A stretch of 36,868 bases of DNA, from positions 1-36,868 of the forward strand of contig JAISUL010000101.1 in NCBI GenBank assembly GCA_031272145.1. Reading direction: 5' to 3'. A model generated the notes under the pieces. That model was not told the DNA's origin. It made no database searches and saw only the letters and a list, made by a program, of their open reading frames with translations. Shown here piece by piece: positions 9,122 through 19,007 of this stretch. How positions within the stretch are numbered: the stretch's first letter is position 1; each line of letters opens with the position of its first letter. Source of the stretch: Synergistaceae bacterium. Its GTDB lineage: Bacteria > Synergistota > Synergistia > Synergistales > Aminobacteriaceae. The translations under genes were made by a program, and so were the position numbers.

Positions 9122-11263
9122 TTACCCCCTAAGGGCCTTGGGCGGCGCTTTGCCTGCCGGCGTATCCGAGATCAGGGTGAACCTCGACAGGACGTCGGTC
9201 AGAGTCTCGACGTGGCCCTTTATATACTCGGCCTGCTCGCCCGTGACCTTGGCTGCGACCACCGTGTCGTCCACCATCTTGGTTATGTTCACGACGGTGC
9301 TGACCATCTCCATCGTGGCCTTGGTCGCGCTGTCTATGCCGGTGGCGACCTCCTTGCTCGAGGCTGCCTGCTCCTCGGCAACAGCCGCGATGTTCTGGAT
9401 CGAGTCGTTGGCCTTGGTGATCTCCTTCATCGCGGCGTCGAGGCCCTTCTGCGCCTCCTCGGCCTGAGTCAGGGTCTTGCCCAGCAGGCGCCCGGCCTCG
9501 GAGGTCGCGTCGATGCTCTCCTTCGCGCCGTTCTGGAGCTCGACTATGATGCCGCCGACGTTCTGCGCGGCCCGCGCCGACTCCTCGGCAAGCTTGCGCA
9601 CCTCCTCGGCCACAACTGCGAAGCCGCGCCCGACCTCGCCGGCACGCGCCGCCTCGATTGCCGCGTTCAGGGCCAGAAGGTTCGTCTGGTCGGCTATGCC
9701 GGTGATGACCGAGACGAAGCCGCTCACGTTCTCCACCGAGGCGACGAGCTGCTTGATCTTGTCCTCGCTCGCCTTGGAGTTCTTGTCCACCTCGTGCATG
9801 CCCTGGATGGCGCTGTTCACCATCTGGATGGCCTTGGTGGACACGTCGGTGGTCTGGGATATGAAGGACGCGCTGTCCGTGGCGGACTGGGCCACCGTGT
9901 CGGCGCCGGCGCTCATCTCCTCGATGCCGGCGTTGCACTCCTCGAGGGCGGCGCCGTTGTTCTCGCTCAGGGCAGACACCTGGTCTATCGAGGTCTTGAT
10001 GTTCGCCATCGCCCCGCTGGCGTTCACAGCCGCCTCGGAGAGCGTCGCCGCCCCGCCCGTCAGGCTGTCCGATACCGACACGACCTCCTTCAGCGTTGCC
10101 TCCTGCGCCGTGACCATGTTGGCTATGGCGTTGACAAGGACGCCCATCTCGTCCTTGCCCTCGTAGCCGAACTCCTCCTTGCTGATGGTCAGGTCGCCCC
10201 CCTCGGCGCGCTTGGCCAGAGTGACTATCGTGTTCAGCGGCTTCGATATGCCCCTCGCTATGACCACCGCCACCAGCACGCCTATGACGACGCTTATCGC
10301 CGTCGCCACGAGCAGCATCTTGATGACCGAGTCTATGGAGTCCTCGTTCTCGGTGCTCAGGGAGTCGGCCCGGTCTGTGCCCATCTTGGTCAGCGCGGAG
10401 GTCAGGTCGTTCAGGCTGTCGGTCAGAGGCGCGGCGTCCTTGTAGACCTTGGCCTCGGCTGCAAATATCTCGACGAACTCGTCCACCGCGGAGTCGAAGC
10501 GGTCGCATGCCGCCAGCACCACGCTCATCATGCCGCGGCGGGTCTCGTTGTCCGTCACCTTCAGGATGGACTGGATCGTCTCCTTGACGGTCTCGACGTC
10601 CTTGATCAGGGTCTGGAAGCCCTCGTAGTTCCGATCCGCCAGGTCGATGTAGGCGTCGCAGCGCAGCTTCTCCACCGCGCGGCTGAGGTTCGCCACGTGG
10701 TAGAGCTGCTCCACCCTCCGCTCCATCCGGGAAGTGTCCCCCTTCAGAATGTCGTCGCGCGCGACGTCGTAGAAGCTATCCGTCAGATTGCCGGCCGAGT
10801 CGGACATGTCCTTCGCGGCGGCGGAGAGCTTCTTCAGGGCTGTCCGCTTGTCGTGTATGACGCTGTTCAGTCGGTTGATCATGCCGCTGTAGTTCTTGAA
10901 GACCGGCATGACGTCGCTCTCCAGCCGCGCAGGGATGTTCAATGCCGTGTGCGAGCGCCCGAAGACCACCACGCCGTCCATCAGCTTCTGCGCGTCGCCC
11001 GCGCGCGCGTCGACCTCCTTGAGCGACTCGTCCGTCTCGGAGATGCGCGCGTTCTTGAGGGCTACGATTAGCTCGTACACGGCGCGCTCAACGTCCATAG
11101 TTTGTATCAACCCTGGTATGACGTCGTCCGAAAGGAAAGCGGTTCTATCCTGCGCGTCCGAAAGGGAACGCCAAACGAAAAATACGGCAAACACAAAAAT
11201 CGCGAGAAGGCCGCCGAACCCGACGAGGAGCTTGCCGGTGATCCTAAGGTTTCTCCACCACAT
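9122..11263 (-). CDS. Methyl-accepting chemotaxis protein (paralogue 2)
   Basis: 713 aa with the same architecture as paralogue 1: TM1 near residues 9-31, helical sensor, TM2 near 313-337, HAMP, signalling domain with the [20 protein letters not shown] tip. The N-terminal 120 residues and the HAMP-signalling half are almost the same as in paralogue 1, while the distal sensor (about 140-290) differs more. This points to a recent tandem duplication followed by divergence of the ligand-binding face. ATG 11263 has GGAGAT upstream. It has its own promoter and terminator. Ligand unknown. Confidence 0.95.
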   Translation of the reverse strand: MWWRNLRITGKLLVGFGGLLAIFVFAVFFVWRSLSDAQDRTAFLSDDVIPGLIQTMDVERAVYELIVALKNARISETDESLKEVDARAGDAQKLMDGVVVFGRSHTALNIPARLESDVMPVFKNYSGMINRLNSVIHDKRTALKKLSAAAKDMSDSAGNLTDSFYDVARDDILKGDTSRMERRVEQLYHVANLSRAVEKLRCDAYIDLADRNYEGFQTLIKDVETVKETIQSILKVTDNETRRGMMSVVLAACDRFDSAVDEFVEIFAAEAKVYKDAAPLTDSLNDLTSALTKMGTDRADSLSTENEDSIDSVIKMLLVATAISVVIGVLVAVVIARGISKPLNTIVTLAKRAEGGDLTISKEEFGYEGKDEMGVLVNAIANMVTAQEATLKEVVSVSDSLTGGAATLSEAAVNASGAMANIKTSIDQVSALSENNGAALEECNAGIEEMSAGADTVAQSATDSASFISQTTDVSTKAIQMVNSAIQGMHEVDKNSKASEDKIKQLVASVENVSGFVSVITGIADQTNLLALNAAIEAARAGEVGRGFAVVAEEVRKLAEESARAAQNVGGIIVELQNGAKESIDATSEAGRLLGKTLTQAEEAQKGLDAAMKEITKANDSIQNIAAVAEEQAASSKEVATGIDSATKATMEMVSTVVNITKMVDDTVVAAKVTGEQAEYIKGHVETLTDVLSRFTLISDTPAGKAPPKALRG

Positions 11264-11328
11264 TGCTGAAAATCATCTCCTAAAAATCAACGCCACGCTC
11301 CGCGAGGTCGCCAATCAAATGATAGGCC

Positions 11329-11374
11329 ATTATACAGCGGGTTATAACATAGGTAAGCATAAATATTTATTTTA
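11329..11374 (-). promoter_or_regulatory. Promoter of MCP paralogue 2
   Basis: Leftward TATAAT (+ strand 11329-11334) with upstream block TAAATATTTATGCTTA. The block, the TATG-TA-AACC stretch and the -10 are shared with the MCP 1 promoter, so the promoter was duplicated with the gene. Confidence 0.55.
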
Positions 11375-11380
11375 GGATAC

Positions 11381-11424
11381 GAAAAATCCCCCACCGCCTC
11401 CGCAACAGAAGCGATGGGGGAATA
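11381..11424 (-). terminator. Terminator after the 51-aa gene
   Basis: Leftward TCCCCCATCGC pairs with GCGGTGGGGGA (one G-T pair), followed by TTTTT. Confidence 0.85.
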
Positions 11425-11445
11425 TTAAAAGCGGGTGAGGCCGGG

Positions 11446-11601
11446 CTAGCTCTTCTTGTCCTCGCGGCGGCGGGCGGCGTCGGCTAGAAAGTCGCCCGTT
11501 ATGAGGTCGTCGATGCGGGCCTTGGCCGACTCCAGGTCGCCCGACGCGTCCAGGATCATCCGCACCATGCCGAGAATCTCACGGAACTGAAAGTCAGTCA
11601 T
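11446..11601 (-). CDS. Small conserved-looking helical protein between two MCP genes
   Basis: 51 aa from ATG 11601 (MTDFQFREILGMVRMILDAS); a GTG at 11616 with AAAGGAG ten bases upstream would add five residues. Codon use follows the neighbours, it has a Shine-Dalgarno on either start, and a terminator follows, so it is likely real. The sequence suggests two amphipathic helices: a hydrophobic one (FREILGMVRMILD) and a charged one (ESAKARIDDLI), with a basic tail RRREDKKS. It starts about 36 nt after MCP 3 ends and is probably co-transcribed with it. I do not recognise the family. Its place suggests a chemoreceptor accessory, which is only inference. Confidence 0.65.
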   Translation of the reverse strand: MTDFQFREILGMVRMILDASGDLESAKARIDDLITGDFLADAARRREDKKS

Positions 11602-11652
11602 GACGTCCGTCTCCACTGGCCAGCATCTCCTTTACCCCCTGCGTCCCCGGCG

Positions 11653-13827
11653 CTACGCCGCGGCCTTCTTCTTCGCCCCCGGCGTAAGGGCCTTGTTCGC
11701 CTTGGCGGGCGGGGCCGCGGTCTCCGCTGCGATGAGCTTGAAGCGCGAGAGGACGTCGTTCAGCCGGTCGACGTAGCCCGTGATGGACTCGGCCTGCTCC
11801 GCCACGCCGCGCGCTGCCTCGACGGTCTCCTCCGTGGCCTTGCCTATGTTGGACACGGTGCTGACCATCTCCATCGTGGCCTTGGTCGCGCTGTCGATGC
11901 CGCTCGCGACCTCCTTGCTCGAGGCGGCCTGCTCCTCGGCAACAGCCGCGATGTTCTGGATCGAGTCGTTGGCCTTGTTGATCTCCTTCATGGCCTCGTC
12001 GAGCCTCTTCTGGGCGGCCTCGGCCTGAACCAGGGTCTTGCCCAGCATGCGCCCGGCCTCCGCCGTCGCCTCGATGCTGTCGTGGGCGCCCTTCTGGAGC
12101 TCAACTATGATGCCGTTGACGTTCTGCGCCGCACGAGCCGACTCCTCGGCCAGCTTGCGCACCTCCGCGGCCACGACCGCGAAGCCGCGCCCGACCTCCC
12201 CGGCCCTCGCCGCCTCGATCGCGGCGTTCAGCGCGAGCAGGTTCGTCTGGTCTGCTATGCCAGTGATGACCGAGACGAAGCCGCTGACGTTCTCCACGGA
12301 GGCGACAAGCTGCTTTATCTTGGCCTCGCTCTCCTTGGAGTTCGTGTCCACGTCGTGCATGCCCTGGATGACGTTGTTCACCATCTGGATTGCCTTCGTG
12401 GCCACCTCGGTCGTCTGGGATATGAAGGACGCGCTGTCCGTCGCGGACTGAGCAACCGTGTCGGCCCCAGCGCTCATCTCCTCGATGCCGGCGTTGCACT
12501 CCTCAAGCGCCGCGCCGTTGTTCTCGCTCAGCACCGACACCTGGTCTATAGAGGTCTTTATGTTCGACATGGCGTTGTTGGAGGTCTCGGCTATGTTGGC
12601 GAGGCGCCCGGCCCCGTCGGTCAGGCTGCCGGAGACCGACACGACCTCCTGAAGCGAGGACTCCTGAGCCGTGATCATGTTGGCCAGCGCCTCCACCAGC
12701 ACGCCCATCTCGTCCTTGCCCTCGTACTTGAAGTTATCCCTCTCTATGGTCAGGTCTCCGCCCTCGGCGCGCTTGGTCAGAGTGACTATCGTGTTCAGCG
12801 GCTTCGATATGCCCCTCGATATGAAGACGGCCACGCCCACGCCGAGCACGATGCATATGGCAGTTGCGATGAACAGCAGCCTCAGCACATCGAACACGGC
12901 GCTCTGGGCGTCCTCGGCGATCTGGCCGGTGCGGTCTGTGCCCTTTCGGGTGAGCACGGAGGAGTCGTCGTTCAGCTTGTCCTGAGCGGACACAAGGCTC
13001 GCCTCGACCTTCTCCTTGTTGCTGAAGAGATCCACGAACTTGTCCGTGTAGCCGTCGAACGTCATAAACTTCGCCTGTATCTGGGAGGTGAGCTGCTGGC
13101 GCGTGGGGTCAGACGTGGAGTTCTTGAGGTCAGCTATGTCGCTCTTGAGCCTCTCGGTAATCTCCCCGACGGCTGTCAGCGCCTTCACGTCCTGATTCGC
13201 TATGGCCTCGTAGAGGTCGCGGCGCGCCGCCTCGAAGTTCTGCATCAGGAGGGCGACCTGGTAGAGCTGGTCTGTCCTCTCGTGCATCTTGGACTCGCTG
13301 TTCCTGCCGCTGGATATCTCAGCGGTGGCGGCCTCGTGGAAGCTCGTGACGAGCTCCCGCGCGGCGGTGGAGATCTCGTCGCCCAGCTTGTCGAGCGCCG
13401 CCATGCCCCTGGCCTTCTCGCGGATGAGGGCGATGATCTGGTCGCAGAGGGCGGTGTACTGCTTGATCTCCGGCAATAAGCTCTCCTTCATCATCTTCGG
13501 CGTGGAGAGCTCCGGCCTCGTGTTGCCGAAGGCGATGAGCTCCTCCGCCAGCTTGTTGACCACCGCCTCCTGTCCCTCGGAGGCCTTCATGTCCTCCTCG
13601 GCCTCGTTCATGCGGATCTTGTCGACGACCAGGAACAGGTCGTAGAGGGCGCGCTCGACCTCCATGTTGTTCACCGTGACCGGGACGACCTCGTCGGAGA
13701 GGAACTCGGCCTGGGTCTGCACGACGGAGAGGTTGCTCCAGACCATGCCCACAGCCAGCGCGAAAATCACCAGCACAACGCCGAAGCCCGCCAGCAGCTT
13801 ACCCGTGATCTTTAAGTTTCTCCACAT
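11653..13827 (-). CDS. Methyl-accepting chemotaxis protein (paralogue 3)
   Basis: 724 aa. TM1 is near residues 7-29 and TM2 near 316-340, then HAMP and a signalling domain with the same [20 protein letters not shown] tip. The sensor domain (about 35-310) is clearly more divergent from paralogues 1 and 2 than the cytoplasmic half, which implies a different ligand range but the same signalling array. The C-terminus is an Ala/Lys/Pro-rich tail ([19 protein letters not shown]) with no CheR pentapeptide. AAGGAGA lies upstream of ATG 13827. The 115 nt to MCP 4 contain no strong terminator, so read-through from paralogue 4 is possible. Confidence 0.95.
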
Positions 13828-13942
13828 TTCAAGACATCTCCTTAAAAAGTAAAGTAAACTACGAAACGCGGCTGGCCCGGCGTCTGCTGCGATCCCAAGC
13901 CGCTTTTGGAACCGCCCGAGGCCTCTGAGACCCCTCGCCTAG

Positions 13943-16126
13943 CTACGCTATAACTGCCGCTAGCGCCTTCCTCCCCGGTTTGGGGGCAGCGCTAGCCGAC
14001 TCCTTTATCTTAAAGTGCGCAAGGACGTTAGTCAAGTGTTCGACGTGGCCGTTGATGGCCTCTGCCTGCTCTGCGACGCTGCGTGCCGACGCCGCCGTGT
14101 CGTCCGTGGCGGCGCCGATGCCGCTCACCGCGCTGACCATCTCCATCGTGGCCTTGGTTGCGCTGTCGATGCCGCTGGCCACCTCCTTGCTCGACGCGGC
14201 CTGCTCCTCGGCGACCGCCGCGATGTTCTGGATCGAGTCGTTGGCCTTGTTGATCTCCTTCATGGCGGCGTCGAGCTGCTTCTGGGCGTCCTCGGCCTGG
14301 GAGAGCGTGCCGCCGAGCAGCCGGCTCGCCTCGGTCATGGCGTCGATGCTGTCGCGGGCGCCGTTCTGGAGCTCCCCTATGATGCCGTTGACGTTCTGGG
14401 CGGCCCGCGCGGACTCCTCGGCCAGCTTGCGCACCTCCTCGGCCACGACCGCGAAGCCCCGCCCGACCTCGCCTGCCCTGGCCGCCTCGATGGCGGCGTT
14501 CAGCGCGAGAAGGTTCGTCTGGTCGGCTATGCCGGTGATGACCGAGACGAAGCCGCTGACGTTCTCCACAGCGGACATGAGCTGCCTCGTCTTGCCCTCG
14601 GTCTGCTTGGCGTTTCGGTCCACGTCGCGCATGCCTGCGATGACGCCGTCCACCGTCTGGATGGCCTTGGCCGACACGTCCGTGGTCTGGGATATGAAGG
14701 AGGCCCCGTCCGTCGCGGACTGCGCCACGGTGTCCGCTCCGGCGCTCATCTCCTCGACCCCGGCGTTGCACTCCTGAAGCGCGGCCCCGTTGTTCTCGCT
14801 CAGCTTGGACACCTGCTCCACCGATGCCTTGATGCTGCTCATCGCGGAGTTGGAGCGCTCGGCCAGCGCTGCCAGCGTGGCGGCCCCTCCCGTGAGGTCG
14901 TCCGACACGGCGATCACCTCTACCAGCGCGGAGTTCTGCGCGGCGATCATGTTGAACATGGCCTCGACCAGGCTCCCCATCTCGTCTCGTCCGCGGTAGG
15001 TGAAGTCGTCCTCCCCTACTGTGAGGTCGCCGCCCTCGGCCCGCTTGGCCAGCCCGACTATGGCGGAGAGCGGCTTCGATATGCCCCGCGCGATCAGGAA
15101 CGCGATAAGCACGCCTATGACTATGCACGCCGCGGTCACCGAGAGCAGGAGCCTTATGACGCCCAAGACCGCCGCCTCGTTCTCCGAGCTTATCTCGTCG
15201 GCGCGCGATGTCCCCAGCCGCGACAGGGCGGACGTGCTGTCGTTCAGGGCCTTCTGTGCCGGCTCGGTATCGTGCGCCGCCACGTCGTCGTCGGCGAAGA
15301 TGACCGCGAACTCCTCCATCGACTGGTCGAACTTGTTGCAGTCGTCCAGCATCCGCGCCGCCAGCTCCTTGCGCTTCGGGTCGAGCATGGACTCGTTCAG
15401 CGTCTGTATTTCGTCCCTGATCTTGTCCGTGTTCTCGAGCAGCGTCTTGAAGCCGTCCACGTCCCGGTTGTAGAGGGAGAAGTAGACGTCCCGCCGGAGC
15501 TTCTCCACGTCGCGCATGATCCGCCCTGCCGCGTAGAGCTGGCCGAGCCTCCGCTTGACCTTGTCCACTTCGTCGTCGGAGTCCAATTTACCTAGGGAGC
15601 GGCTGGCCTCCAGCTCCTCGATCGACGAGCTGTAGAAGCTGGTTATCAGCTTCTCCGCCGATTCCGAAAGGGTGCTGGCCGTGGTGCGGAGCCGAGCCAT
15701 CGCGTCGGACTTCCTGCGCACTACGTCCTCGACGCGGCCGATGATGCCGGAGTACTGCTGCAGGAGCGGCATGACGTTGTGCTCGAGCATCTTCGGGGCC
15801 TGAAGCTTGTCGTTGGTCTTGCCCAGGTCGAGCAGGGACTGCACGTTTTTGTCCACGACCACCTGGTCGTCCTTTATGGCCTTTAGCGCGGCCTCGCTTC
15901 CGGTCAGCCGCGCGCTGTCCACCGCCAGGAACAGGTCGTATATCGAGCGCTCCACGTCCATGGCGTTCACCAGCACCGGCACGACCCCGTCCGACATAAA
16001 AACCGTGTTGCTCAAGGCCGACGAAAGGCTGAACCACACGGTACCCACCGCGCCCGCGAACATCGCGAGCAGCACTCCGAACCCAACCAGCAGCTTGCCG
16101 GTTATTTTCAAGTTCCTCCACCACAT
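13943..16126 (-). CDS. Methyl-accepting chemotaxis protein (paralogue 4)
   Basis: 727 aa from ATG 16126 ([17 protein letters not shown]), chosen because the other three paralogues begin with the same M-x-WRNL-I-TGKLL block and AAAGGA lies just upstream; the frame is open to 16210 but the extra residues match nothing. TM1, a long helical sensor, TM2 near 318-342, HAMP and signalling domain are present. The most divergent of the four in the HAMP and sensor, though the hairpin tip is the same. First gene of the leftward chemoreceptor block, divergent from folD across a 116-nt gap that contains a palindromic repeat. Confidence 0.94.
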   Translation of the reverse strand: MWWRNLKITGKLLVGFGVLLAMFAGAVGTVWFSLSSALSNTVFMSDGVVPVLVNAMDVERSIYDLFLAVDSARLTGSEAALKAIKDDQVVVDKNVQSLLDLGKTNDKLQAPKMLEHNVMPLLQQYSGIIGRVEDVVRRKSDAMARLRTTASTLSESAEKLITSFYSSSIEELEASRSLGKLDSDDEVDKVKRRLGQLYAAGRIMRDVEKLRRDVYFSLYNRDVDGFKTLLENTDKIRDEIQTLNESMLDPKRKELAARMLDDCNKFDQSMEEFAVIFADDDVAAHDTEPAQKALNDSTSALSRLGTSRADEISSENEAAVLGVIRLLLSVTAACIVIGVLIAFLIARGISKPLSAIVGLAKRAEGGDLTVGEDDFTYRGRDEMGSLVEAMFNMIAAQNSALVEVIAVSDDLTGGAATLAALAERSNSAMSSIKASVEQVSKLSENNGAALQECNAGVEEMSAGADTVAQSATDGASFISQTTDVSAKAIQTVDGVIAGMRDVDRNAKQTEGKTRQLMSAVENVSGFVSVITGIADQTNLLALNAAIEAARAGEVGRGFAVVAEEVRKLAEESARAAQNVNGIIGELQNGARDSIDAMTEASRLLGGTLSQAEDAQKQLDAAMKEINKANDSIQNIAAVAEEQAASSKEVASGIDSATKATMEMVSAVSGIGAATDDTAASARSVAEQAEAINGHVEHLTNVLAHFKIKESASAAPKPGRKALAAVIA

Positions 16127-16242: not shown

Positions 16243-17163
16243 ATGAAGATAAACGTGTGGTTCACGCTGATAATGACGGGCGCGGAGGTGGTTCGGGGGA
16301 TGATGCCCGGGCTGGTCGAGACGCGCAGGGCTCTGGAGGCTCGCGGTATCACCCCGACGCTGGGGATAATGCGCGTCGGGAAAAAGTCGTCTCCGGATGG
16401 CGCGGGGGCTACTAGTCCCCACGAGGCCTACGAGAGGATGGCCGTCAAGCGCTGCGAGGAGGTCGGAGTGGCGGTGCGGCGCCTCAAGGTCGATCCCGAT
16501 AGCGACGTGGTGTCGGCGTGGCGCGAGTTCGAGCGGGACAGCGCGATTCACGGCGCGCTCCTGCTGCGTCCGCTGCCCAAGGCGCTGGCGGCCGCTGAGC
16601 GGGAGATATGCCTCACCGCCGACCCGAGCAAGGACGTGGACTGCATGACGCCCGCCAACCTGGGGCGGCTGCTGCGCGGGGACGGAGTATTTTCCCCCTG
16701 CACCGCGGGAGCCGTCATGGAGCTGCTGCAGCACTATCTCCCTATCGCCCCTCCCTCCGGGATGACCTTGGCTGGGAAGCGCGTCGTTATCGTCGGGCGT
16801 AGCATGGTGGTTGGGCGTCCTCTGGCCATGATGATGACGGCGGCCGACGCGACCGTCACGCTCTGCCACAGTCGGACGGAGGGTCTCGAGGCCATATGCC
16901 GCGAGGCGGACGTCCTAGTGGCTGCCGTGGGCAGGCCTGGCATGATAACCGCCTCGTTCGTCAAGGGGCGGAAGCCTCCTAAGGAGGGGGCGGTGGTGGT
17001 GGACGTTGGGATAAACGTTGGCCCGAGCGGAACGGTGCTGGGCGACGTTGACTTCAAGGCCGCGTCAGGGAAGGCGTCGATGATAACCCCTGTGCCTGGC
17101 GGCGTTGGAGTGGTGACGACGATGATGCTGGTGAAGCACACGCTGATCGCCGCGGGCGGCTAA
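16243..17163 (+). CDS. folD: FolD-type methylenetetrahydrofolate dehydrogenase/cyclohydrolase, variant active site
   Basis: 306-aa enzyme interconverting methylene-, methenyl- and formyl-tetrahydrofolate. Family motifs are DPSKDVDCMTPANLGRL, FSPCTAGAVMELL, the NADP-site VVIVGRSMVVGRPLA, TVTLCHSRT and MITPVPGGVGVVT. The usual catalytic Lys of the Y-x3-K motif is Ala here: YERMAVKRCEEVG has K two places later. A similar YERGAxKRC form is, to my memory, found in a clostridial FolD group, so this is probably a clade trait rather than a broken gene. About nine extra residues (PDGAGATSP) before this Tyr are encoded by a palindrome-like stretch. ATG 16243 has AGGGGG eleven bases upstream; ATG 16273 is possible. 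Followed by a bidirectional terminator. Confidence 0.9.
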   Translation: MKINVWFTLIMTGAEVVRGMMPGLVETRRALEARGITPTLGIMRVGKKSSPDGAGATSPHEAYERMAVKRCEEVGVAVRRLKVDPDSDVVSAWREFERDSAIHGALLLRPLPKALAAAEREICLTADPSKDVDCMTPANLGRLLRGDGVFSPCTAGAVMELLQHYLPIAPPSGMTLAGKRVVIVGRSMVVGRPLAMMMTAADATVTLCHSRTEGLEAICREADVLVAAVGRPGMITASFVKGRKPPKEGAVVVDVGINVGPSGTVLGDVDFKAASGKASMITPVPGGVGVVTTMMLVKHTLIAAGG

Positions 17164-17180
17164 GGCCGAAAGGCGCCATA

Positions 17181-17218
17181 AAAAATCCGGGGGATTTTCC
17201 ATCCCCCGGACTTCTTTT
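17181..17218. terminator. Bidirectional terminator between folD and the ncRNA gene
   Basis: TCCGGGGGAT pairs with ATCCCCCGGA around a 5-nt loop. The + strand exit is CTTCTTTTT; the - strand exit is a clean TTTTTT, so it fits the leftward RNA gene even better than folD. Confidence 0.9.
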
Positions 17219-17442
17219 TGGTGTCTCATAGAGGCGAGAGGCAGGCCTCCTTCTACTGCACGGGGATCTCCCGCAGACGTCACGCACCTCATGTTCGCGT
17301 GTGCCGCGCTTATTTGGGCGGTAGCGGACCTAGTCCGAGCGTTTAAATCATAACCTTCACCGAGGGCGCTACAGTCAGAGGTGAGGGAGTTCAGCCCTCG
17401 CTACAGAAAAGATTCGGCAGCCCTCATACCGCCTGCCTCTCA
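17181..17442 (-). ncRNA. Structured non-coding RNA of unknown family (6S-like terminal stem?)
   Basis: A leftward transcription unit without an ORF: strong promoter at 17449-17477, predicted start near 17442, and an intrinsic terminator at 17181-17218. The 5' end GAGAGGCAGGC (17441-17431) is perfectly complementary to GCCTGCCTCTC near the 3' end (17246-17236), giving an 11- to 13-bp closing stem. Inside are several local hairpins: CGGAC/GTCCG, CACGC/GCGTG, and CGAGGGC/GCCCTCG, the last competing with GAGGG/CCCTC. The long closing stem and size recall 6S RNA. I looked for tmRNA, RNase P RNA and SRP RNA core motifs on this strand and saw none. Family not assigned. Confidence 0.65.
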
Positions 17443-17448
17443 CTTCTG

Positions 17449-17477
17449 ATTCTATCACACCGTTCCCAAAAAATCAA
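17449..17477 (-). promoter_or_regulatory. Strong promoter of the ncRNA gene
   Basis: Leftward TTGATT (+ 17472-17477), 17-nt spacer, TAGAAT (+ 17449-17454). Confidence 0.75.
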
Positions 17478-17738: not shown

Positions 17739-19007
17739 CTACTGCCCTTTCCTGCGCCTCCGCACTCCTCGGTGTTTCCCGACCCACACCGCCAGCACCC
17801 AGGCCATAGCCGCGCTCCCGCCGGTCTGGCAGCCGAGCTGGCCGCAGTTGTAGACGCCGACGCTGAGGTCTTTCGTGTCGACTCCGACGCTGTTTCTTGC
17901 CGACACCGTGAACTTAAACTCTCCTATATCCGTTGGTGTGCCGGAAAGGCTGCCGCCGGGCGACAGGCTGATGCCTTCCGGCAAATTGCCCTCCACTAGC
18001 TCCCACGTCACATCACCACCAGTCGCGGCGAGCACTTGGCTGTACCGTCCCTTGAACGTGCCGTCGGGGAGGGAGTCGGTGGTTATATGGGGCGCTTCAA
18101 GAGGAGAGGTGATGGTTATACTCAACATAGCGTCGTCACTCCCAACGTCGTTAGAGACCATAACCGTGAAGCCGAACGAACCGGCCTCCGTCGGAGTGCC
18201 CCCAATAACAACTCCATGATCATCACTAAGCCTCTCAAGCACAAGGCCGGGCGGTAGAGAGCCGCCGCTCACTCTCCAAGTCATAGGCGAAGTGCCAGTC
18301 GCGTTTATCCGCGCATAGTACATTCCTTCCACTGTGCCGCTGGGAAGGCTGGTTGGGTTTATTATCGTGGGGGCATCGGCCGCTGGTGCCAGTATCCCAT
18401 CGCCGGAGTCGCCGCTGGCGCTCCACGTTATCGGCGGAGTGCCGTCTGCGGACAGCGGATACGAGTTAGACGGTTTGTCCACCGTGACCACACGAGGGGT
18501 ATCGGAGCTTATCACAGGAGGACTTGCCGCGGTGCGACGCCGTACCGACGCCGCGGCTGCCGTCGGTTTGCTGACGGGCGGAGAGTAGGCTGGCACGACT
18601 GGGGCGGCTGTCACATCATCTATCTCGTCGGCACCGTCGTCGTATGTGGCGATTTGGCCGTCCTCATTGTCGATATATCCTTCATCGATGTTGAGGAGCG
18701 TGCCGTGGTTCTCGATCAGGCCGTCGTTGTCGATCAGGCCGCGGTTCTCGATCGTGCCGAAGTTGGCCAGGATCACGCCCTCGCCGATCAGCAGGACGGC
18801 GCCCGGCGGCACGGCGAAGGTCTCGTCCTCCTCGATGAGCAGGTCGCTCGACAGGACAATGACGTCGCCGGACGTCACCGCGGCGGCGTCGATAGAGGCA
18901 GGGTTCGCGCGGCTGGCTAATGGGAAGGCGAAAATCGTGAGAAGTAGAAGCACACAATAGAACACTCCACGCCCGACGCGCGCGTTGCCATCCACCGCCG
19001 TAGCCAC
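17739..19007 (-). CDS. Secreted putative-Ig repeat protein with a Synerg-CTERM-like tail
   Basis: 422 aa. GTG start at 19007 with AAGGAGG eight bases upstream. An N-terminal signal peptide (hydrophobic YCVLLLLTIFAFPLASRA, cleavage near ANP) is followed by a short solenoid-like region of I-x-N-x-G repeats (TIENRGLIDNDGLIENHGTL, about 85-115), a Pro/Ala/Thr linker, and putative-Ig (He_PIG-like) repeats marked by LPPGL, GxPTEAGSFGFTV, LPDGT and SGTPTDIGEFKFTV. The end, GCQTGGSAAMAWVLAVWVG plus a basic RRRRKGQ, resembles the Synerg-CTERM sorting signal, so the protein is probably processed and displayed on the surface. It shares repeats, solenoid and tail style with the large protein at 30716-34507. 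Function unknown; adhesion is a guess. Confidence 0.8.
   Translation of the reverse strand: MATAVDGNARVGRGVFYCVLLLLTIFAFPLASRANPASIDAAAVTSGDVIVLSSDLLIEEDETFAVPPGAVLLIGEGVILANFGTIENRGLIDNDGLIENHGTLLNIDEGYIDNEDGQIATYDDGADEIDDVTAAPVVPAYSPPVSKPTAAAASVRRRTAASPPVISSDTPRVVTVDKPSNSYPLSADGTPPITWSASGDSGDGILAPAADAPTIINPTSLPSGTVEGMYYARINATGTSPMTWRVSGGSLPPGLVLERLSDDHGVVIGGTPTEAGSFGFTVMVSNDVGSDDAMLSITITSPLEAPHITTDSLPDGTFKGRYSQVLAATGGDVTWELVEGNLPEGISLSPGGSLSGTPTDIGEFKFTVSARNSVGVDTKDLSVGVYNCGQLGCQTGGSAAMAWVLAVWVGKHRGVRRRRKGQ

Follow-up and report, generated by a model that had tools for sequence, protein, structure and literature searches.

What is the transcription unit that follows folD (16243-17163, plus strand, by Pfam) in the window, meaning the whole 36,868-nucleotide stretch of Synergistaceae DNA that was analysed? 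To a reader with the letters before them it looks like a complete gene for a structured RNA recalling 6S RNA. The evidence set out below makes it probable, in our judgement, that the locus belongs instead to a new Synergistaceae family of type I toxin-antitoxin-like elements with a full-length overlapping antisense RNA, and that it is a decayed copy, toxin-dead and antitoxin-retaining.

The structured RNA beside folD

On the minus strand, TTGATT-N17-TAGAAT at 17449-17477, with a TG before the -10 that makes it of the extended -10 type, is the sole site resembling a promoter within 1.4 kb of scanned sequence (shuffles expect 0.3). The putative antitoxin RNA to which it would give rise is structured, antisense and of ~262 nt (17181-17442, minus strand), the family alignment and covariation considered below being further evidence for it; at -108.9 kcal/mol (z = -3.8) its fold is equalled in stability by 0 of 200 shuffles. 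An inverted repeat pairs its ends at 11 of 11 positions, the 5′ arm GAGAGGCAGGC (17431-17441, minus strand) starting 8 bases past the -10 and the 3′ arm GCCTGCCTCTC (17236-17246, minus strand) being located also by alignment with intact copies. Downstream is a terminator, a hairpin TCCGGGGGAT..ATCCCCCGGA followed by T6 (17180-17210, minus strand). There is a T-rich tail on the plus strand too, and the terminator can therefore be shared with folD.

Promoter, 11-bp end pairing and terminator had all been pointed out in a sequence-only reading of the stretch and are borne out here. So too are its alternative pairings (GAGGGC with GCCCTC, and GAGGG with CCCTC), which exist and correspond to helices, outer and inner, that the family conserves. 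That reading was right in seeing a structured, self-contained non-coding unit and overlooked the multi-copy family, the peptide gene on the opposite strand and the decayed state. Its comparison with 6S RNA, which has a closing stem and a length of ~180-260 nt in common with the element, fails. A search of the window region against Rfam gave no family at gathering thresholds (6S, tmRNA, RNase P and SRP included), RF00013 had no match there up to E 10, and the genome's 6S RNA is elsewhere (C68:324-512, 48.6 bits with a cut-off of 46.4). Sub-threshold Rfam matches to His_leader, sraA and MIR529 resemble chance or terminator likeness and were set aside.

Copies in the same genome and the broken coding side

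When the 297 bases of the element were used as a query against the genome from which the window comes, they gave nine further places at which the ends are conserved and the middle is divergent. In total ~15 copies or relics are present, the count being what the searches recovered. Intact copies are on contigs C16, C17, C33, C35, C37 (two), C49, C78 and C93, and decayed or partial ones on C2, C13, C28, C38, C65 and, for the window itself, C47. On the strand opposite the antisense RNA, intact copies have a -10 of their own and the same repeat arm where the transcript is predicted to begin; a strong Shine-Dalgarno then precedes an ORF of 23-31 codons, e.g. MKTAIHIFRALAAICTAIAEIISAVARE (C35) and MTDVTQLLFAIAAVLFAAADFIRALKL (C33). 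The window's arm GCCTGCCTCTC, read on the plus strand, is GAGAGGCAGGC, the same start as that of the peptide mRNA of intact copies.

What is left of the peptide gene in the window is DVTHLMFACAALIWAVADLVRAFKS, in frame to its stop (17276-17353, plus strand). This remnant is the last 25 codons, and it matches positions 3-27 of the peptide profiles at E 1.1e-9 and 2.2e-9. Alignment with C33, C35, C49, C78 and C93 places a deletion scar at 17264-17276 (plus strand), and copy comparison reveals a ruined peptide-gene -10 at 17224-17229 (plus strand), TCTCAT for the TATAAT of C35. With Shine-Dalgarno and start codon deleted and the -10 lost, the toxin half is dead and at most an orphan antitoxin RNA would be made. 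The lesions are confined to the coding side; closing stem, terminator and antisense promoter, the last kept also in C33, C35 and C78, are intact. A small (under 60 aa), hydrophobic or amphipathic peptide with a ribosome-binding site, as in type I systems, is accordingly a feature of the family and not of the window copy, its start being deleted. The family RNA model did not recover the window copy at E <= 1, and its membership derives from 73% identity with C33 and from the peptide profile match. Another deletion of a similar kind is carried by the C13 copy.

Two other arrangements in this genome are pertinent. The intact copy on C33 has, at a distance of ~220 bp, a second toxin-side end (GAGAGGCAGGC and the next ~35 nt; L002:1950-2000, minus strand), which is a partial duplication. 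The two tandem copies of C37 (L204, 1300-2800 of that contig in G000), found with the RNA model, represent a second and more remote subfamily of the peptide (MKKLATFAKRALAFLKLALAIAELIRLFM and its sister).

Distribution of the family

Relatives within the bacterial family were first picked up with a six-peptide profile, and a 29-sequence profile was then built. At E <= 0.01 the latter matches 52 of the 83 genomes sampled from that family; among the other Synergistota, 3 of 105 have a match, which is near the ~1 expected by chance. A covariance model built solely from the sequence that follows the ORF, with a written structure, is independent of the peptide profile, and alone it finds 49 of the 83 and one of the 105. 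The one strong match of this model outside the bacterial family (L221, G153:C169:476-575; E 4.9e-14) has kept only the last peptide codons and reflects either horizontal transfer or a contaminated assembly. Only the peptide and RNA profiles reach across genera, a nucleotide search of 60 relatives having given no matches, and no relatives of the family were found in viral contigs and plasmid collections. The four named loci belong to deer-rumen genomes classed as Synergistaceae or Synergistales.

Tandem arrays with a spacing of ~300-400 bp are frequent. There are six copies in L066 (G089, contig C99), and L067, L070, L074 and L076 are further arrays. Of 122 loci collected, 107 were complete enough for measurement. 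More than half of the genomes sampled from one Synergistota family have an element, often in tandem, that none of Rfam, Pfam, NCBIfam and PADLOC recognises.

The peptide

Peptides of the family are of 23-38 aa, typically ~27 residues (a typical sequence is MERIIKLVKALTELIRALAELIRIFKS), and in nearly all of the 107 copies they are preceded by a Shine-Dalgarno. Values of pN/pS of 0.25-0.42 between copy pairs place the peptide under purifying selection. Its character is that of a cationic amphipathic helix with a hydrophobic moment of 0.70 (0.39 in shuffles) and a mean net charge of +3. Most likely the peptide is a membrane-acting toxin.

A cationic amphipathic helix would also suit a secreted antimicrobial, signalling or surface-active (phenol-soluble-modulin-like) peptide whose translation is under overlapping antisense control. 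Tandem multiplication of copies is in keeping with such a role, as is a weak match to PSMalpha in Pfam (E 0.038, sub-threshold), nothing significant having been found for the peptide in Pfam, NCBIfam, PADLOC, PHROGs or PDB. However, antisense coverage of the entire message, present in almost all copies, is a type I hallmark, orphaned antisense copies are recurrent, and no pattern of export or modification genes was noticed. A secreted product is therefore judged unlikely.

The antisense gene and its persistence

A perfect antisense TATAAT is present 75-130 nt past the stop in 94 of the 107 copies (expected, 3.1; sense direction, 0), and a recognisable antisense -10 accompanies 101 of the 102 intact ORFs that have enough sequence. 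The sense and antisense promoters alike belong to the extended -10 type and have no conserved -35. By these counts conservation of the antisense gene equals that of the peptide. The antisense extended -10 and the covarying antisense domain point, at the sequence level, to an RNA antitoxin overlapping the toxin mRNA.

Toxin copies that lack the antisense promoter are nearly absent, and antisense domains with a destroyed ORF are present, in several genomes, at no fewer than eight loci besides the window copy (L208, L209, L210, L212, L216, L217, L219 and L221). This asymmetry of decay, with antisense outlasting ORF, is in the direction expected of toxin and antitoxin, the counts being from two different searches and compared informally. 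At L216 and L217 (G024) and at L210 (G084:C136) the promoter and covarying antisense hairpins are present and the peptide gene is without trace, making these loci candidate stand-alone antitoxin RNAs. Two neighbouring ORFs of the four in array L070 (814-1310, plus strand) are frameshifted early with Shine-Dalgarno and antisense promoter intact. Dead-toxin copies constitute a natural series for asking whether antitoxin RNAs outlive their toxins.

RNA structure and covariation

RNAalifold recovers the closing stem unprompted from 45 aligned elements. When five helices are specified, pairing holds in 90.9% of cells (at most 50.1% when slid), both-side changes are in 92 cells (as against 29 for shuffles) and none of 500 shuffles comes up to any of the measures; in the closing stem there are double changes in 5 of 6 pairs and, over 96 copies, its own arms score 18.5 as against 16.4 for permuted arms (sd 0.27; best of 2000 permutations, 17.2), all of these being figures that the shared history of related sequences prevents from being read as probabilities, though the sliding control does preserve relatedness. 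Compensatory changes in the closing stem among relatives, on which the sequence-only reading had staked its proposal, are present and many. Besides the closing stem, there are more covarying hairpins past the stop codon, and within the ORF synonymous codons covary (Ala GCC with Arg CGG, 16 of 17; Ala GCG with Arg CGC, 9 of 12; Thr ACG with Arg CGT, 9 of 13). Copies from genomes other than the window's mostly have the 3′ arm of this stem within the loop of the mRNA's final hairpin, and in them the antisense RNA opens with a hairpin complementary to that final hairpin. The >100 diverged copies provide an unusually deep alignment, which separates peptide selection, RNA structure and antisense control.

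A strong fold, covarying helices that in part involve synonymous codons of the ORF, and retention of the RNA part in orphan copies would be understandable if what is selected were an independent structured regulatory RNA, whether like 6S or not, with the peptide secondary. We regard this as very unlikely given that a coding form with a strong Shine-Dalgarno and purifying selection is present in 52 of the 83 family genomes, that Rfam has no match and that 6S RNA is encoded elsewhere in the genome.

Inverted-repeat ends, many copies per genome and the occurrence of fragments also bring to mind a MITE-like non-coding repeat, the inverted repeat being a transposon end and the promoters and ORF accidental. 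But conservation reaches past the repeats into both promoters, the repeat arms co-change between copies, and there is the purifying selection on the peptide, for which three reasons the mobile-repeat reading, scarcely credible in our view, was dropped. Copies in the same genome are, further, strongly divergent mid-element, unlike recently moved elements.

Proposed mode of action

From the copies, promoters, Shine-Dalgarnos, coding selection, covariation and lesions documented above, the following may be presumed of transcription, toxicity, duplex formation between mRNA and antisense, and action in trans. In an intact copy of the toxin-antitoxin-like element, two convergent extended -10 promoters flank, from just outside, the short inverted repeat. 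One would direct synthesis of an mRNA with a strong Shine-Dalgarno and the ~27-aa amphipathic peptide, and the other that of an antisense RNA spanning the whole mRNA. As the repeat is inverted, both RNAs would start with the same 7-11 nt and either could close end to end; full complementarity of the two follows from their overlap. First contact would be that of the loop of the mRNA's final hairpin with the opening hairpin of the antisense RNA, leading to a duplex over the message, a block to translation and decay of the duplex.

Control by the closing stem itself, of the sort associated with AapA, is a different matter. The predicted probability of the Shine-Dalgarno being unpaired is 0.19 at full length, 0.20 without the 3′ end and 0.28 when shuffled. 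Its accessibility is thus independent of the closing stem in the predictions, and AapA-like gating by that stem is unsupported.

The first 30 nt of the window's antisense RNA are identical to those of its C33 counterpart, and so the window RNA could pair in trans with the C33 message and might act on that copy. The orphan RNA may be functional or may merely be decaying. A more far-reaching proposal, that of a mirror-symmetric, lineage-wide type I family with loop-to-loop contact and with orphan antitoxins selected as trans guards against active copies, is speculative and, taken whole, rather doubtful.

Relation to known type I systems

An mRNA for a small peptide together with a covering antisense RNA that starts past its 3′ end is the anatomy of a type I pair. 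That anatomy, with database matches absent, is why the family is filed as new and the window copy as a toxin-dead member of it. The Fst/Ldr superfamily likewise pairs a short peptide toxin with an antisense RNA, and the Ldr loci of E. coli are tandemly repeated, but the Synergistaceae peptides have no Pfam match.

Like the Synergistaceae loci, those of the Ibs/Sib (ibsC/SibC) type in Escherichia coli are multi-copy and tandem, with a very short hydrophobic peptide and a cis antisense RNA over the toxin gene (in part from PMC8309996). In contrast to Ibs, the Synergistaceae peptide is longer and amphipathic, and each of the two RNAs has a closing stem by virtue of the inverted repeat at the ends. 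No sequence relation is apparent, the Ibs toxin domain PF13956 having no match in the genome at E <= 1.

AapA/IsoA of Helicobacter (Campylobacterota) has in common with the present family a toxin mRNA with 5′-3′ end pairing, hairpins in leader and ORF, a full cis antisense RNA and several loci per genome (PMC6733600). End pairing covaries here, but removal of the 3′ end leaves the Shine-Dalgarno closed in predictions, i.e. the closing stem is not predicted to hide it; peptide and phylum differ, and the Synergistaceae RNAs share their 5′ ends through the inverted repeat. TisB of E. coli, a 29-aa amphipathic helical toxin (PMC8309996), is comparable in size and character. Its antitoxin IstR-1, in contrast, works in trans at a standby site and does not overlap the message in full. 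The TisB domain PF13939 had no match in the genome at E <= 1, and weak matches in 3 of 14 controls, E. coli included. The mode of action is most likely like that of Ibs/Sib, with the likeness to AapA/IsoA being in end pairing and ORF hairpins, and neither likeness being one of sequence.

According to a 2025 paper (PMC12390103), type I systems were identified, prior to its own cyanobacterial case, only in Proteobacteria, Firmicutes and Tenericutes. In the literature no paper was found that joins type I toxin-antitoxin systems with Synergistetes or Synergistota.

Surroundings of the window copy

With the remaining copies being on other contigs, the location next to folD is probably incidental. 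Adjoining the element is an ORF of 422 aa (17739-19007, minus strand) with putative Ig domains (He_PIG, E 5.8e-15), the product of which is likely a surface or secreted protein. Elsewhere in the window (9300-14250, minus strand), near-identical stretches beginning ATCAACAAGGCCAACGACTCGATCCAGAACATCGCGG near 9376, 11937 and 14209 look like tandem chemoreceptor genes.
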